Below, piece by piece: positions 4,301 to 15,744 of a stretch of DNA of 24,999 nucleotides. Below the pieces are notes generated by a model, which saw only the letters and a list, made by a program, of their open reading frames with translations, had not been told where the DNA came from and made no database searches. Within the stretch, counting starts at the first letter, position 1. Every line of letters starts with the position of its first letter. This DNA is from a virus. The DNA lies in the IMG/VR virus record IMGVR_UViG_3300044675_002306, positions 1 through 24,999 of that record. The stretch is one strand, 5' to 3'. The position numbers were made by a program, and so were the translations under genes.

Positions 4301-7300
4301 GATGCTGGCGATTCTGTTGATCTCTTGCCTTCCGTCCATTTTGTTCAAATGAACTGCGGCCAGGATATTTTTCCCTTCATGCTGTAAGTCTAGAATTACC
4401 GTGATGGCATCTGGAACTGTAGCTGACTTGAAGACAAAGATTGGATCTTTAATGGATGCAGCAACTTGCTTGATGGTTTCTAAATCAAGCCCGTGCTTCC
4501 CATCCATTGCCTTGTCTACAACCCTTGCCGGCATAGTTATTGGGAGTTGATCTGCTCCAGATAAAACCAATGGGTCAGGAGTCCTGCCACCCACTTTTAT
4601 TGTCTTTGATTGGCTTTCGTCTCCGTTGGCAACAGCTTCAACCGATTTAGCAAACTGTTGCTCCTCAATTTGCTCACGGGCGCGGATGGAGAAGGACTTG
4701 TCGCCATCTGACTCCTGCTCTCCCTCAATCCTGTTGACCTCACGCTCAATCATTGAAACGTCACTCAAGCCAATCTTACCCATGAGGTAGCGTTCAAACT
4801 CGGCGTCAATCTTGCCGTCGGCAAATGCCTGATCTAGCAGCTTGGCTCGACGCATGAACTCCACGAACTCGGTGTAGAGTTTCTTCAAGAAAGCGACGAA
4901 AGAGGAGGGGAGGTTGGTCTGGTCTATCTTGTTATGGGCGAAGTCCATGGCGATCTGCGCCATGCTCTCTCTGACCTCGGCATCTGTTCCAAACTTGTAT
5001 TTGGCAACGCCGGCAGCAGTAGTCTGACTGACCCATGCACGGGCCTGCTCCTTGGTGATGCGGCCCTCGGCAATATCAATGTCAAAGATGTTGTGAACGA
5101 TCTCCTCAAAGGCAACTTCTACGTTGTGGCCTTCGTTCAGCTTCACGAAAGCCTTGTATTGCCCCTCGGCGTATCGAGTGATCCAACTCTCTCCGTGGAT
5201 GCGCAGCTTCGCTATCTCGGCGGGATCGTTGCCGTGCGCCTTGATGCTGGCCTCTATTGCTTCAACCATCTTGGTGTCGCCTCTAGCCTTTGCGTCATTG
5301 AGCAACTGCTCCGGGGTCACCTCTCCCCCAAAGATAGCCTCAAAGTTGGGGAGCTTGGCTTTCCTCCAATCGGAGTCCAGCAAGTCGGCAACGAGGTTTG
5401 CCTCATTCTTGATCTCGGCCTCGCCTCTATCGGCAATGATGGTGACTGCTTCCAGTTCACTTGCTACACGGGCGACTTCCTTGCCGGCAGGGTCACGCAC
5501 GATCCATTCGCTTGTGCCGTCTGCCTTGGTATTGACCTCAACGGTGTCGCGGGGTCTATTGGCCTTTGCCTCTTCAATACGGGACTCATAGAGGCTCTTG
5601 CCTGCTTCGATATCCGACTCCTTGCGCTTGCTCCACTCCTCCTCAATCCGCTTGTTCTTTTCCTCAAGTGAGGATGCCTGATTGATGTAGTCCCTCTGTG
5701 CTGGACTGAATCCTGCCTCCTGCAACCTTGCGTCTGCCAACTGCAAGGCGGGGTTTTTCAAGTCACGATACGTCCCGATACCTCCACCGATGAGGGCGAG
5801 GGGAAGCACGGCAAAGAAGGTCTCGGCCCTGCTCCCCACATAATCCTTCATCAGCGCACCGAAATCCTTGTCGGGCATATCCTCGCGGAGTGCTGCCGCC
5901 AGAGTCTCGGTGAGTGGGGCGATAAGATCCTGGGCGCCTTCCTGCAAGTTCTGCTCAAGCACCTCAACTCCAACCGTGGTCAGCACCCGTCGAATCCCGT
6001 TGTTCTTGATGCCATTCAGTAGTCCACCAAAGACGGGGAGCTTTCCGTTGATCGCGCCCAACTGGAGGCGATCCAAGGCGGCATTGCCGGCGCCCTCCAC
6101 AAGCGAAAGCCCCTTGGCAAAGCTAGGATCAATGTCTGGGTTCTCCAATATGATGCGGTCATACTCCTGCGCCTGGTATGCAAGCATCCCTATTGCGGGG
6201 TTGATCGCTACGGGAACCATGATCCCTAGTGAGCCGGCTAATCCGTAGGCTCCACGCTCAATCGCGGAATCCTCAAACACCGGCCTAATCGGGTCAACGC
6301 TGCTCTTGGCTACATTGCGGAGTTCGCGGATGACGCCGAAGGTTTTGAGATCCTTCTCTGCCTCTGCCTTGAGGGTTGCCACCTCTTCGGGAGTGGCTTC
6401 CCGTCCCGTCATGTCAATGTTGATTGCGGAACCTACAACTGCCTGCGAGGGTCGGAATACATCGTTGAGGGTGGGGGTTCCCTCCCTCCTGCGTAACCAT
6501 ACCTTGCCCGTGGCGAGTGTGTCGCGCATCTCGCGGAAGGCGTCCTCTTGTAATTGCAAGGTTCCCTGCGGAATGAAGTCAAACCCACGGGAGAAGGACT
6601 GACCCATGTTGATCGCAAACTGCTCAATCCCTGCCCTGTCAATGTGACCGGCCTCTGCCGCAAGCCCAATGTAGGAGTAGACTTTCTGCCTCTCCTCCGG
6701 GGTCGAGGAGGACAGATGCTCGGCAACTTGGGCGATGCGCTCGTCATCGGCCTTCCCCTGCGTGAAATCCATGAGGGCGGAAAAGGTCTCGGCTCCCCTG
6801 CCTCGGATGCTTTCGATGTCCTTGAGCGTCTGGTTGTAGACCCTGTTAGCCTGTGCGTGGAAGCCGGCATCACCTCCGATGAGGTCTTTGTGCTGCTCCT
6901 CCCATTGCTTCACATACTCGGTGGGAAGCCCGACCATTGCTCTGTTCTTGCCCATGCCGGTATCTTGGAATGCCTTCAAGACCACATTGCCGTAGAGTTC
7001 GTTGAGTGCTGTGTCCTTGTCCTTCTCCTTCACGAAATACTCCGAGAGCATGGAACGATACTCACTCTCTGACTTGGGTGCCGGCTTGTTCAGCTTGACG
7101 GCAATCTGTGCCTTGTAGTCCCCGTACTGCGTGGCGTCCAACTCGTCCAGGGGCTTGCCCATGAGGGCGGCAGTTGCCCTCCAGTTCACCGTCATGTCGG
7201 TGTAGAGCTTCGGGTCAATCAGGGCATTGGCCTGCGTCTGGATGCCTGCCATCTCCTTTGTCTGGCTTTTTGTGTCGGGGAGAATCTTGGATAAAAGGTC

Positions 7301-7489
7301 AACTTCCTTCATCCTTTTTCGCTCATTTTCTAGGCGCTGCCTCTTGTTCTCCTCCTCATCCACGGCAATGCGGTCTGCCATCGAAGGTTGCTGAAGAGTC
7401 TGGTCAAGGGCGATCCTGTCAGCGAATACGGGTGCCTGCTCCGGGGGAGGGGAGGGGTCTTGTGATGTTAGGGAGTCAATATCAGACAT
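1331..7489 (-). CDS. Giant internal virion / polyvalent ejection protein with MuF-C-like domain
   Basis: A 2052-aa protein from ATG 7489. By position, between the gp14-like and 606-aa virion genes and the tail fibre, it is the counterpart of the very large ejection proteins of podoviruses (T7 gp16 role), which enter the cell with the DNA. Visible parts are a charged N-terminus; hydrophobic stretches near residues 430 (LGIMVPVAINPAIGMLAY) and 566 (FFAVLPLALIGGGIG); a helical charged region; an EEIVH motif near 795; a MuF-C-like domain at about 960-1100 (QLPITMPARVV, DPIFVFKSATVPDAI, AAVHLNKMDGR, VNRIAS-like NRIAS); and a long C-terminal domain ending after a run of aspartates (DARDDDDDEWFDE) that resembles C-termini of phage polyvalent proteins. 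DNA for the MuF-C part is clearly AT-richer than its flanks. No Shine-Dalgarno is seen at the ATG. The structural role is fairly sure; domain names are by eye. Confidence 0.88.
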   Translation of the reverse strand: MSDIDSLTSQDPSPPPEQAPVFADRIALDQTLQQPSMADRIAVDEEENKRQRLENERKRMKEVDLLSKILPDTKSQTKEMAGIQTQANALIDPKLYTDMTVNWRATAALMGKPLDELDATQYGDYKAQIAVKLNKPAPKSESEYRSMLSEYFVKEKDKDTALNELYGNVVLKAFQDTGMGKNRAMVGLPTEYVKQWEEQHKDLIGGDAGFHAQANRVYNQTLKDIESIRGRGAETFSALMDFTQGKADDERIAQVAEHLSSSTPEERQKVYSYIGLAAEAGHIDRAGIEQFAINMGQSFSRGFDFIPQGTLQLQEDAFREMRDTLATGKVWLRRREGTPTLNDVFRPSQAVVGSAINIDMTGREATPEEVATLKAEAEKDLKTFGVIRELRNVAKSSVDPIRPVFEDSAIERGAYGLAGSLGIMVPVAINPAIGMLAYQAQEYDRIILENPDIDPSFAKGLSLVEGAGNAALDRLQLGAINGKLPVFGGLLNGIKNNGIRRVLTTVGVEVLEQNLQEGAQDLIAPLTETLAAALREDMPDKDFGALMKDYVGSRAETFFAVLPLALIGGGIGTYRDLKNPALQLADARLQEAGFSPAQRDYINQASSLEEKNKRIEEEWSKRKESDIEAGKSLYESRIEEAKANRPRDTVEVNTKADGTSEWIVRDPAGKEVARVASELEAVTIIADRGEAEIKNEANLVADLLDSDWRKAKLPNFEAIFGGEVTPEQLLNDAKARGDTKMVEAIEASIKAHGNDPAEIAKLRIHGESWITRYAEGQYKAFVKLNEGHNVEVAFEEIVHNIFDIDIAEGRITKEQARAWVSQTTAAGVAKYKFGTDAEVRESMAQIAMDFAHNKIDQTNLPSSFVAFLKKLYTEFVEFMRRAKLLDQAFADGKIDAEFERYLMGKIGLSDVSMIEREVNRIEGEQESDGDKSFSIRAREQIEEQQFAKSVEAVANGDESQSKTIKVGGRTPDPLVLSGADQLPITMPARVVDKAMDGKHGLDLETIKQVAASIKDPIFVFKSATVPDAITVILDLQHEGKNILAAVHLNKMDGRQEINRIASIYDKNSNQSIIGWIKDGMLLYANQQKGRQWSQSIGLQLPKEATKSGNSNLRTEADIVNTSLSIQSQSQIDRVNKAVADTTQFAEGRMALYERAKERFKAVLAENKDILDALKEGGAAPEKIRRAKLIQAIAELEVILRQLPAEVRGKVGGFGVLARGGTGDTFLANFFRDRVRMIDEQLEKYLSNEYDEELYRIFERAKPKKDKPGEKPKGIGADIQDLFAKVKEAQRWSAEEINAHLAAIDSRIDSEDLSPSDEARLIREADLIGLVGGWRNKDSNAKAHAIATLKETWAKGYYNFILKKTQEKEQREADRMEAIAATGKEGVLAERQEADKKENGWKGKFKKGYFNLIGWDQFVSVLFGEKSDIATRLANGERNANSQKEDATQSKMDEISKFFAGLAGKDKLKGEQLRWKMAQKSLKPFEGTRWSNLEFSEMEAVAATMLWMQEDGRRHMIGKLDDGGKPISAWNYTQEFVDLLEANLSKEAKALRDFLLKKYDTEYDSINKVYKALNGINLPKIANYSPVTVAPVNAPAGTAIDPVTGGVMAARGTSPGALRTRGQAIAEPKFQDALQTYIAHTKQMEHWKAYAPFMAEANGILRNRDVQNAIEAKGGKEAKAVLNTWTDLFSQGGVRSAEAQLGLSKDISEAGGRAARVALVGRIGTIIIQSTQLGAALAEMPTGAYILRMSKLLSGNLGWKAAFESDYIQRRLNEMPPIVRQAVEGLKSDRPNVVKSAVEKLGRLISGADAIFTAGTYAITYDYHLKQAKQMGIPSPEAYAKSVAERAVDKLAQPTRMGARSVIENTSTGLIRNFWAFASESRKNLGLAAYAINVQDPARIGRTLVSLVVLNSLLGNIIRNAWSDARDDDDDEWFDEKHWGLKRMLTSTLVDSIQVRGIPVLGDAISTGFYDAVNQYHQTGSLINFGGFIRAMKHIPKYVEGDADWEMTFKDIDGILSVGGLFNESIAAAASLSHLANDAFGVSKNAKKAVTGD

Positions 7490-7595
7490 GAAGGTAGGCG
7501 CTAAACCTAAAACCCAGCGTAAATTAAATCAATCGGAAAAGGGTTATTTCTGTTGACTATATAAACATCGCGGGTTCTTCTTGAATGAACTCGTC

Positions 7596-8024
7596 ATGGT
7601 CATTTATTCCGAAAACAAGAGTAAGCAGCAAATACTCCACAAAGATCTACTGATTCAGTTCTGGAATTACTTCCTTGAAGATGATTCCGTTAAAGGGGGA
7701 AACAAAATCAAAAGGGAGGCGCTAAAAGCCAATGCTCAATCTGGGCTTAAAAGCCAGCAAGAACGGCTACGCAAACTGAAAGAGTATAGCCAATTTATCC
7801 TTGAGTCGCCTAAAGAAACGGTCGAAAAAAGGCAAGATTTTGATCGCCTTAAAAAGACCCTGCACAGGGCAAATGCCGAGATAAACAAGAAGTGTTTTGT
7901 GTGCCTTTCTCAAGCCCATTGCCGGCATCACATCATTCAGCTACAGCACGGGGGGATGAATCACAAAAAGAACATCGTTAGCCTGTGTAACTTCTGCCAT
8001 GCCAAAATACATCCTTGGATGTAA
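7596..8024 (+). CDS. HNH endonuclease (plus-strand)
   Basis: About 142 aa from ATG 7596; a TTG five codons upstream (7581) is the alternative start, and neither has a Shine-Dalgarno. The first 95 residues are charged and helical with many lysines. The C-terminus is a compact HNH nuclease domain: CFVC (about residues 100-103), RHHIIQLQHGG, an N in NHKKN, then CNFCHAKIH (131-139). The two CxxC pairs should bind a structural zinc, and the HH pair and later N/H form the metal-dependent active site. Such stand-alone HNH genes in phages are usually homing endonucleases or self-propagating nicking enzymes. It lies opposite to the virion genes, diverging from the 2052-aa gene, and is AT-richer than they are, which suggests insertion. 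It is followed after 45 bases by another plus-strand gene. Confidence 0.85.
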   Translation: MVIYSENKSKQQILHKDLLIQFWNYFLEDDSVKGGNKIKREALKANAQSGLKSQQERLRKLKEYSQFILESPKETVEKRQDFDRLKKTLHRANAEINKKCFVCLSQAHCRHHIIQLQHGGMNHKKNIVSLCNFCHAKIHPWM

Positions 8025-8069
8025 AAAACACGGTTGACGCCACCCTGTTAGCGGGTCGATATTGGAACC

Positions 8070-8315
8070 ATGAAGACGACGATACTCATTGCGATGCTTC
8101 TGGTTGGGAATGCGGTGGCGGAACCTATCTTCACGCCAGAAGACATCCGCAGAAACATTGCGGAGTTTAAAGAGGGGTGTGATCGTTTTAATTCTGGCCC
8201 CCAAATGTCGGATACGATTCGTTCAAACGATGAGGCGGCTTCCCCTATGAAGGTGGATTACTCCCTCATCACTCTGCCTGATGGCAAGACTGCCTCGGTG
8301 CTGACCTTTCACTAA
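8070..8315 (+). CDS. Small exported protein of unknown function
   Basis: This 81-aa protein starts with a clear Sec signal peptide: MKTT, a hydrophobic core ILIAMLLVGN, and a likely signal peptidase I site after AVA (residue 17). No lipobox cysteine is present. The mature part, about 64 residues, is hydrophilic with one cysteine (EGCDRF), and I do not recognise it. Its stop overlaps the stop of the minus-strand 606-aa virion gene by four bases, tail to tail. A TTGACG box lies about 35 bases upstream of the ATG, but the -10 is poor. Orientation and leader suggest a cargo gene acting on the envelope, for example in superinfection exclusion or lysis, but nothing in the sequence settles this. The signal peptide makes a chance ORF unlikely. 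Confidence 0.6.
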   Translation: MKTTILIAMLLVGNAVAEPIFTPEDIRRNIAEFKEGCDRFNSGPQMSDTIRSNDEAASPMKVDYSLITLPDGKTASVLTFH

Positions 8316-14116: not shown

Positions 14117-14157
14117 AAAAGAAAGGGGTGAGGCCGCCTTTAGTGCAGCCCCACCCC
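14117..14157 (-). terminator. Intrinsic terminator after the major capsid gene
   Basis: On the minus strand a 13-bp stem (two G-U pairs; 14145-14157 with 14125-14137) and a 7-base loop are followed by TTTCTTTT. It lies 14 bases after the capsid stop and before the adaptor gene. It would let capsid mRNA be made in excess over tail mRNA if it is only partly efficient. Confidence 0.85.
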
Positions 14158-14171
14158 CAACTTGTGAGGAC

Positions 14172-15092
14172 TTACTTGGTGGTGTCGGCCAGGATGCTCA
14201 CGACACCGTTCTCAAGGAGACGGGTCGCACCGAGAACCGCTGTGCTGCGGATCTGGAGGGCATGGCTCTGGGTGGGCAGAACGTCCATGTAGGACTTCTT
14301 GCCGCCATCCACGACGACTGCCGCATTCTTGTGGTAGGCCACGCAAGTGCGGACGTTCGAGGCGACTCCAAGCTGCTCGGAGCGAACCACCTTGAATCCG
14401 AGGAACTGGTCCACATCACCATCCACGAGAGCGCGGACAGAATTGAACAAGTTAGACGTAACCTCCGTAGTACCAAGGAGATCTGAAATCTCTTTGGCGC
14501 TCACGATGAGAACGCGATCCTCTGCGGGGGCTTCGTTCGCATCAAGGATGCGCTTGGCCTCGCGGAGCTTGCCGATGGTGAGACCGCTGTTGGTAGCGGT
14601 TCCGCCGGCAGGGACGTAGTTCACAGCGACCGACTGTCCTGCGGGGAGGGCAACGGTGGTTGTGGTGTTGTTCAGACCAAACCCAGCGGAGGTGTTGGCG
14701 GTGTTGGTGATCGTCGCGGATGCGGTGAGGGCATCGATGAGGATCTTGTCCACCAGACGACCGTAGGCTGCGGCCTGCGACTGCATGCACTCCGAGGTGG
14801 GCAGGACAACGCTTCCAAGGAAGAGGTTGTCGAACTCCGAGAAGATGTTGGCGATGTCGTAGGGGACGGGGTAGGCCCAACGGGTCGGCAGGGTGCTGTT
14901 GCTCTGGGGAGTGGCAGCATTGCGGGTCGTGACCTGGGACATGGAGGTGAGTCCATACTGGTTGAAGCGGACGGCTGCGCCCTGCGCGGAGACGAACTTG
15001 GATTTCTCTTTGAGGCGGCTCTCCATTTGCTGAAGCAAATGCTCCCAGTTAGTGGAATATTGGATGGAATAGTGATCGGGGATCTGAAGCAT
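14172..15092 (-). CDS. Major capsid protein, Bbp17-like
   Basis: A 306-aa protein that resembles the short HK97-fold major capsid proteins of BPP-1-like podoviruses. Visible features are an N-terminal YSTNWEHLLQQ helix, VPYDIANIFSEFDNL, a Thr/Asn-rich middle loop (about 130-175), the segment KLREAKRILDANE followed by RVLIVSAKE, and FLGFKVVRSEQL near residue 230, the usual run-up to the last capsid strands. It lies downstream of portal and scaffold and just before a strong terminator, as expected for the most abundant virion protein. The ATG has no Shine-Dalgarno; the 15 bases before it are C/A-rich with CCCTAACA repeats. Upstream is a roughly 590-base gene-free region with extensive predicted RNA structure. 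Confidence 0.92.
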   Translation of the reverse strand: MLQIPDHYSIQYSTNWEHLLQQMESRLKEKSKFVSAQGAAVRFNQYGLTSMSQVTTRNAATPQSNSTLPTRWAYPVPYDIANIFSEFDNLFLGSVVLPTSECMQSQAAAYGRLVDKILIDALTASATITNTANTSAGFGLNNTTTTVALPAGQSVAVNYVPAGGTATNSGLTIGKLREAKRILDANEAPAEDRVLIVSAKEISDLLGTTEVTSNLFNSVRALVDGDVDQFLGFKVVRSEQLGVASNVRTCVAYHKNAAVVVDGGKKSYMDVLPTQSHALQIRSTAVLGATRLLENGVVSILADTTK

Positions 15093-15104
15093 AATGTTAG
15101 GGTG

Positions 15105-15683
15105 TTAGGGGTTGTGTAGGATACTTACTAAACCGAACAAGAGGTTGCCCCTTACGGGATCACTTAACTTCGGGGATGACCAACCTACACAGATCCACAC
15201 CTAGCAATCGCTAGAGGGGTTGCCTCTCGGTTTGTCTATTTCAAGCAACTAACATCACTCACCTAACCAGTCAACGATAATTCGCACAAAAAGATTGCGG
15301 TTTTTGAAATGATTTGTAGAGTCCTACTTGGAATCAGGCGAAGCCCGTAACACGGACAAGCATGGTTCCTCCTTACGGATCGGAATAAAACCGTATAGCC
15401 GAAGGATAGGCGATAGGTCGCACATTAGCGGGCCGTCCTCAACAATCACCGATTCGTCTAGTGGGAAGATCCCCGTCTTTACGGGGAGACGGAGCGTTCG
15501 ATTCCTCCATCGGCTGATTGTCACCAATCATTGACAGGAAACTAAAGTTGCCGATAGGCGACATTAAGGCCGGCAATGGAAGCTATAGCTGACATTGCCC
15601 GGTCAAGTTACTATTCAAAGATAGTGGAAGCCACTTACTACCAATGAGTAGTACGCAAGCAAGAGTATTCGATGGTTCGCATT
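15105..15683 (-). ncRNA. Candidate large structured RNA or capsid mRNA leader
   Basis: Between the terminator after the HNH gene and the capsid ATG are about 590 bases without a convincing gene. Read on the minus strand they give consecutive stems: 15648-15653/15636-15641, 15631-15635/15623-15627, 15621-15625/15610-15614, 15593-15599/15572-15578, a 12-bp helix with one bulge 15509-15521/15442-15453 enclosing further hairpins (including a 6-bp stem with 4-base loop, 15471-15486), 15206-ish hairpins, and two interleaved helices, 15227-15233/15130-15136 and 15184-15191/15113-15120, that make a pseudoknot. Several stems extend with G-U pairs on the minus strand, though a few favour plus. It may be a stand-alone RNA of the ROOL/GOLLD kind seen in phages or a regulatory leader. 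No promoter is convincing. Folding was by eye. Confidence 0.4.
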
Positions 15684-15718
15684 CAAAAGCAAAACCCCCA
15701 CCAGTTTCCCGGTGAGGG
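15684..15718 (-). terminator. Intrinsic terminator after the HNH gene
   Basis: On the minus strand CCCTCACC pairs with GGTGGGGG (one G-U pair) across an 8-base loop, followed by TTTTGCTTTT. It ends the packaging/scaffold transcript 26 bases after the HNH stop and separates it from the structured region and the capsid gene. Confidence 0.8.
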
Positions 15719-15744
15719 CTTCTTGCGTCCAACCAAGCTAAAGA

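Follow-up and report, generated by a model that had tools for sequence, protein, structure and literature searches.

A conserved structured RNA leads into the major capsid gene in a group of uncultured podovirus-like phages

A structured RNA lies directly before the major capsid gene of an uncultured, podovirus-like phage and is conserved in 37 IMG/VR capsid loci. It occupies positions 15093..15250 (minus strand) of the window, i.e., the whole stretch of 24,999 bases analyzed from virus record IMGVR_UViG_3300044675_002306, and its conservation, strand, base pairing, and position were established by comparison among relatives. Its 3' end is the capsid ATG, its 5' end probably falls at ~15240-15250, and the conserved RNA measures about 145-165 nt. 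From these sequence patterns, we infer that it forms the 5' leader of the capsid mRNA, transcribed from a presumed promoter, and that it probably acts by controlling the initiation of capsid translation.

The record carries T7-like head genes on its minus strand, in the order terminase, head-tail connector, scaffold/protease-like, SSB-like, HNH-type endonuclease, a 652-nt gap, and major capsid (14172..15092; PF19821). The capsid reading frame is complete, ATG included, and residues 4-302 of its 306 match the capsid family. As the preliminary description had stated, the gap (15093-15744) is the largest gene-free stretch of the record and is bounded by the capsid ATG (15092) on one side and, at its far end, by an intrinsic terminator (minus strand, 15722-15691); its only open reading frames are two unsupported ones of 67-68 aa with no Pfam match. 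The same description had proposed a single 590-nt RNA, which did not hold up since relatives split the gap into separately evolving parts: 15093-15323 is conserved by the capsid, 15323-15685 is variable, and 15685-15744 is the conserved terminator. The variable middle is replaced freely among relatives while the leader stays. Judged by sequence comparison, then, the gap is a composite in which a minus-strand capsid leader would stand back to back with a plus-strand RNA-gene cassette, and a gap resembling one giant RNA can thus be two adjoining units. A second plus-strand island, consisting of an HNH-like ORF and a small ORF, was noted at 7581-8315; the genome is otherwise minus-strand.

Relatives were gathered by means of the capsid protein and then compared with the gap. 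The leader was present in 37 IMG/VR contigs (the window not counted) whose capsids are 46-96% identical, and every capsid relative of at least 46% identity with upstream DNA covered carried it in the same sense, abutting the capsid ATG. Motifs common to the leaders, within the ~150-170 nt before the ATG, are GGxCAAC, TGTAGG, and CCC-NNNN-GGG-RCAAC. A pattern scan of IMG/VR for two leader motifs returned 39 contigs; those upstream of this capsid family were true leaders and supplied a new sub-group (L128/L132/L144/L149), and the remainder, not located before such a capsid, looked like chance matches. Pattern scans for distant leaders likewise gave mostly chance matches inside genes, and the distant capsid relatives L026, L104, L071, and L117 had long pre-capsid gaps in which the best model match reached only E 0.14. 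Rfam scans of the window gave no match at the gathering threshold or at permissive E-values up to 5-10, so that the earlier statement that no known family could be matched is confirmed for the conserved leader; permissive Rfam scans of relatives gave only weak or marginal tRNA, tRNA-Sec, and abiF matches. Searches by blastn against GenBank phages and plasmids returned nothing for the leader and, for the gap as a whole, a single hit at chance level; no description of the leader was found in the partially covered open-access literature. Since no capsid relatives were found in bacterial genomes, no host was inferred. The capsids of L024 and L025 have a ~70-residue insert after residue 150 relative to their relatives.

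Read in the capsid sense, the leader begins with hairpins H1 (15213-15227; 92% paired) and H2 (15201-15214; 100% paired, with double changes). These are followed by the 5' strand of helix A, UGUGUAGG (15184..15191), whose partner CCUACACA (15113..15120) lies ~20-28 nt before the AUG; their pairing probability is 0.99 in the window. Between the two strands stands arm F/E (15133..15173; CCGAA at 15173-15169 with UUCGG at 15137-15133), enclosing stem M+C (15141..15163), which comprises an outer stem, AU, CCC-GUAA-GGG, and then a GCAAC bulge and is the most conserved motif of the leader. The ~20 nt separating helix A from the ATG in the window contain no G; in group II leaders the helix's 3' strand runs right up to the ATG. 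Helix A shows a double change (U-A/A-U) in group I, the window's own leader group, and several changes in group II. When its 5' strand was paired against the last 45 nt before the AUG, the mean pairing probability was at least 0.41 in 17/18 leaders computed, L093 being the one below this value. This strand reads AUGUAG or GUGUAG in most leaders, a start codon immediately followed by a stop, and GAGUAG in L002, L006, L011, and L024.

Covariation agreed with the predicted structure in three alignments, with none of 500 shuffles reaching the observed score in any of them; since shuffles do not preserve relatedness, these figures are not probabilities. Structure covariation was 0.248 vs. 0.157 in shuffles for 12 group I leaders (double-change cells, 18 vs. 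5.5), 0.140 vs. 0.077 for 11 group II leaders, and 0.613 vs. 0.228 for stem M+C across all groups (24 sequences). In M+C, changes on both sides occurred in 37 cells vs. 13.6 in shuffles, and three adjacent pairs were each altered on both sides. Slid controls of the same tests scored at most 0.165. On this point the preliminary description is supported: a conserved structured RNA, with stems that covary among homologues, adjoins the capsid start and reads in the minus-strand sense.

Cross-prediction by covariance models is less exposed than the shuffles to the objection of relatedness. Model R1, built on group II alone and without the window, matched L107 (E 7e-8), L013 (1.5e-6), L008 (1e-4), L024 (0.002), and L018 (0.02) in the expected place and strand, and matched the window weakly at 15093-15239, minus strand (12 bits, E 0.35). 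Conversely, model R3, built on group I alone, found seven leaders of other groups (L107, L096, L123, L089, L144, L093, and L086) and made no other match. Model R2, whose training set includes the window, matched 15121-15236 on the minus strand. The sole off-strand match of the covariance models was a marginal one to the reverse strand of L144, given by the group II model.

A pseudoknot of two interleaved helices had been proposed beside the capsid start; these correspond to helix A and a helix B (AAACCGAG/CTCGGTTT). Both pairings exist and helix A is real, but helix B lacks covariation support: although 84% of its cells within the window's group are paired, its double changes show no excess (108/500 shuffles reach the observed number), and it competes with the better supported arm F for the same 3' strand. 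No counterpart of helix B was found in other leader groups, and it is possible only in the window's group. Because the pseudoknot helix lacks conservation, an HDV-like ribozyme topology was also rejected after consideration. The long closing helix described earlier would be built from GTTAG/CTAAC repeats, with one side within the presumed promoter spacer.

The expectation that the whole gap folds better than shuffled sequence was clearly borne out on the plus strand (z -4.6; 0/20 shuffles as good) and more weakly on the minus strand (z -1.8). Since the cassette folds well on the plus strand (z -4.0 for 15324-15690 alone), it accounts for the strong score that the gap as a whole reaches on that strand. 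Single leaders fold only modestly better than shuffles, and group alignments of the leader fold slightly better on the plus strand. However, the extra G-U pairs that the preliminary description had seen on the minus strand are borne out in the conserved leader, where helix E counts 12 G-U vs. 0 A-C pairs, and all group I helices except B together have 21 G-U vs. 8 A-C in the capsid sense. In group II the count was only 6 vs. 2 with H1, which is misaligned there, left out. The minus strand is thus favored by G-U counts and by the fixed position before the capsid gene, not by folding energy alone, and on the same two grounds an antisense (plus-strand) RNA over 15093-15250 was dropped.

Immediately upstream of the leader lies a presumed capsid promoter (15247..15274, minus strand) consisting of TTGACT (15274-15269), a 16-nt spacer, and TTAGTT (15252-15247). 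TTGAC occurred in 27/27 aligned leaders, 158-193 nt before the ATG, and, among relatives down to 46% capsid identity read in the capsid sense, a TTGAC box preceded the leader in all except L144. The promoter is only presumed since a sigma-70 scan found no consensus promoter at 15247-15274, where the -10 box is poor. The intrinsic terminator of the upstream HNH/SSB/scaffold operon (15691..15722, minus strand) is conserved in relatives and stood upstream of the leader in the cases read; another terminator (14124..14158, minus strand) follows just after the capsid gene, and post-capsid hairpins are conserved in most relatives. With a TTGAC box and a terminator before the leader and a terminator after the gene, the capsid looks like its own transcription unit. 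Its start codon has no Shine-Dalgarno sequence and nearly G-free surroundings; since few genes of this record have such a sequence, its lack here is not special.

The variable part of the gap (15295-15690, plus strand) would be a separate unit of tRNA-like and other small RNA genes with fast turnover. Its presumed promoter (15295..15322; TTGCGG, 16 nt, TAGAGT) recurs ahead of different genes in relatives and in L165, a contig that is dissimilar elsewhere, and tRNA genes begin right behind this box in L003 and L019. The first cassette element is a hairpin block, GGAATCAGGCGAAGCCCG...GGTTCC (15330..15369), common to L006, L096/L166, and L165. These ~40 nt are nearly letter-identical across distant phages (window, L006, L096, and L165:7195-7231), and on the minus strand of the window and L096 the block reads AAGGAGG followed by a 9-codon ORF (MLVRVTGFA in the window). 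Next is a tRNA-like element (15448..15515) with a homologue 82-83% identical in L008-L013 and L020, in which stem differences compensate. It resembles RF00005 tRNA in its T-arm (GTTCGATTCC), D-arm, and cloverleaf-like stems but differs in having a 6-nt rather than a 7-nt anticodon loop and a mismatched acceptor; ARAGORN and Rfam were both negative for it. Two different tRNA-like families with 6-nt anticodon loops (TCTTTA, GGTTGT, and CCAATG) occur at this site (window 15448-15515, plus strand; L019:2692-2762; L002:2482-2552; L009:2446-2517). Given such loops, these elements probably do not decode normally, and they may be decoys or relics. A further block of the cassette, rich in repeats (15606..15686), is shared with L165 (90% identity over 81 nt).

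In relatives, the variable middle carries tRNA-Trp, tRNA-like genes, or, in L008/L010, an HNH gene, and is nearly empty in L018, L021, L024, and L025; every tRNA called lies on the plus strand, opposite the capsid. Behind the plus-strand promoter box of L018 and L021 stands a tRNA T-arm and acceptor end alone, resembling the scar of an attachment site or of a deletion. Another structured plus-strand RNA sits between tRNA genes in L002, L003, L006, L008, L009, L011, L012, and L013, and in L165 near 7166-7400. It ends in the stem TCGGGGGAGG...CCTCCTCCGA plus a T run and has a hypervariable yet always paired apical stem; it has no Rfam match and has been lost from the window.

In the mechanism that we favor, transcription of the upstream operon would stop at its terminator and the capsid gene would be transcribed from its own promoter, so that the capsid mRNA would begin with a folded leader of ~150 nt. 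After H1, UGUGUAGG would pair across arm F/E/M/C with the strand lying 1 to ~30 nt before the AUG, and the resulting helix A would close a junction ahead of a start codon without a Shine-Dalgarno sequence. A protein, or a change of fold by which helix A opens or closes, could then control capsid translation initiation. Translation is taken as the most likely target from the end point of the long-range helix, which is at the start codon or close to it; against this, the ~20 nt between helix A and the AUG in the window leave enough space for a ribosome, and the same sequence evidence would be expected if the leader acted on transcription or mRNA decay. One tentative and rather unlikely elaboration, drawn by analogy, is that the leader is an autogenous operator in which the capsid protein or an assembly partner binds H1 and M, both of which contain GGxCAAC, and closes helix A. 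Coat proteins of RNA phages feed back on their own synthesis; such an operator would mean that assembly feeds back on capsid synthesis in a tailed DNA phage.

Other explanations were weighed against translational control. Processive antitermination or attenuation by an RNA like HK022 put, allowing polymerase to pass the post-capsid terminator and express the tail genes, would suit a leader right behind a presumed promoter and a hairpin terminator directly 3' of the capsid gene in most relatives; we consider it unlikely, since the position of helix A's 3' strand follows the AUG and not the start of the RNA. That helix A is conserved beside the AUG also goes beyond what a simple protective hairpin needs, and it makes quite unlikely a leader that mainly stabilizes the mRNA or sets its RNase processing while translation goes unregulated, even though 5' structures often protect mRNAs and capsid mRNA should be abundant. 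A DNA element, i.e., an operator or a packaging or recombination site whose inverted repeats merely resemble RNA stems, might explain the GTTAG/CTAAC boxes repeated near the presumed promoter, and tRNA pieces and HNH genes mark a recombination spot. It is nonetheless improbable, given that G-U pairs are kept mainly on one strand in helix E and group I and that compensatory changes occur in nested, large-loop arms, unlike DNA palindromes.

A single ornate noncoding RNA of ~580 nt spanning the whole gap, similar to ROOL or GOLLD, is largely refuted and now seems highly improbable. The plus-strand folding scores and the tRNA genes near the gap in relatives speak for it, as GOLLD and ROOL are frequently found close to tRNA islands (PMC12286853). 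However, the two halves of the gap evolve independently of each other and show conservation on opposite strands, the variable half is missing from several relatives, and Rfam was silent even at the permissive thresholds. The ROOL model gave no match at the gathering threshold or at E up to 5, and where ROOL is one RNA of several hundred nt with multiple pseudoknots, the conserved unit here is ~150 nt and its pseudoknot helix does not covary. The GOLLD model with its conserved 3' half had no match either; tRNA-Trp and tRNA-like genes do occur nearby in relatives, as GOLLD would have it, on the strand opposite the leader. Group I intron models gave no match, and the capsid ORF is uninterrupted. 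The suggestion of a ROOL/GOLLD-type RNA is thus unsupported: the conserved unit is the 5' leader of one gene, evolutionarily unlinked from the rest. Like GOLLD and ROOL, the leader is a structured RNA encoded by phages and has tRNA genes close by in relatives, but it is much smaller, is part of an mRNA leader, and differs in neighbors, strand, and the lack of an Rfam match (PMC12286853).

The leader conforms to a cis-acting phage mRNA leader in that a conserved, covarying structure lies directly upstream of one gene and in its sense. Rfam lacks this RNA family, which is a mark of the capsid gene in one group of uncultured podovirus-like phages, and its presence suggests that a tailed DNA phage controls its most abundant virion protein at the RNA level. 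The Mu-gpT-DE and GP20 motifs are candidate structured RNAs beside phage head genes; the leader matched no Rfam family, in a scanned library that may or may not include these two. The manA and wcaG motifs are covarying RNAs in potential 5' UTRs of phages and metagenomes, tied to metabolic genes (PMC2864571); the leader is likewise a covarying motif in a potential 5' UTR of phage or metagenomic origin, but it is linked to a capsid gene rather than to metabolic genes and has no Rfam match. By analogy, the closest functional precedents are the leaders of T4 gene 32 and gene 43 (PMC3014915). In T4 and RB69, the gene 32 leader pseudoknot and the gene 43 operator mediate autogenous repression of replication genes by a known ligand (PMC3014915). 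The leader described here differs from them in its fold and in preceding a capsid gene, and it shares with them a folded element of a phage mRNA leader located tens of nucleotides before the start codon.
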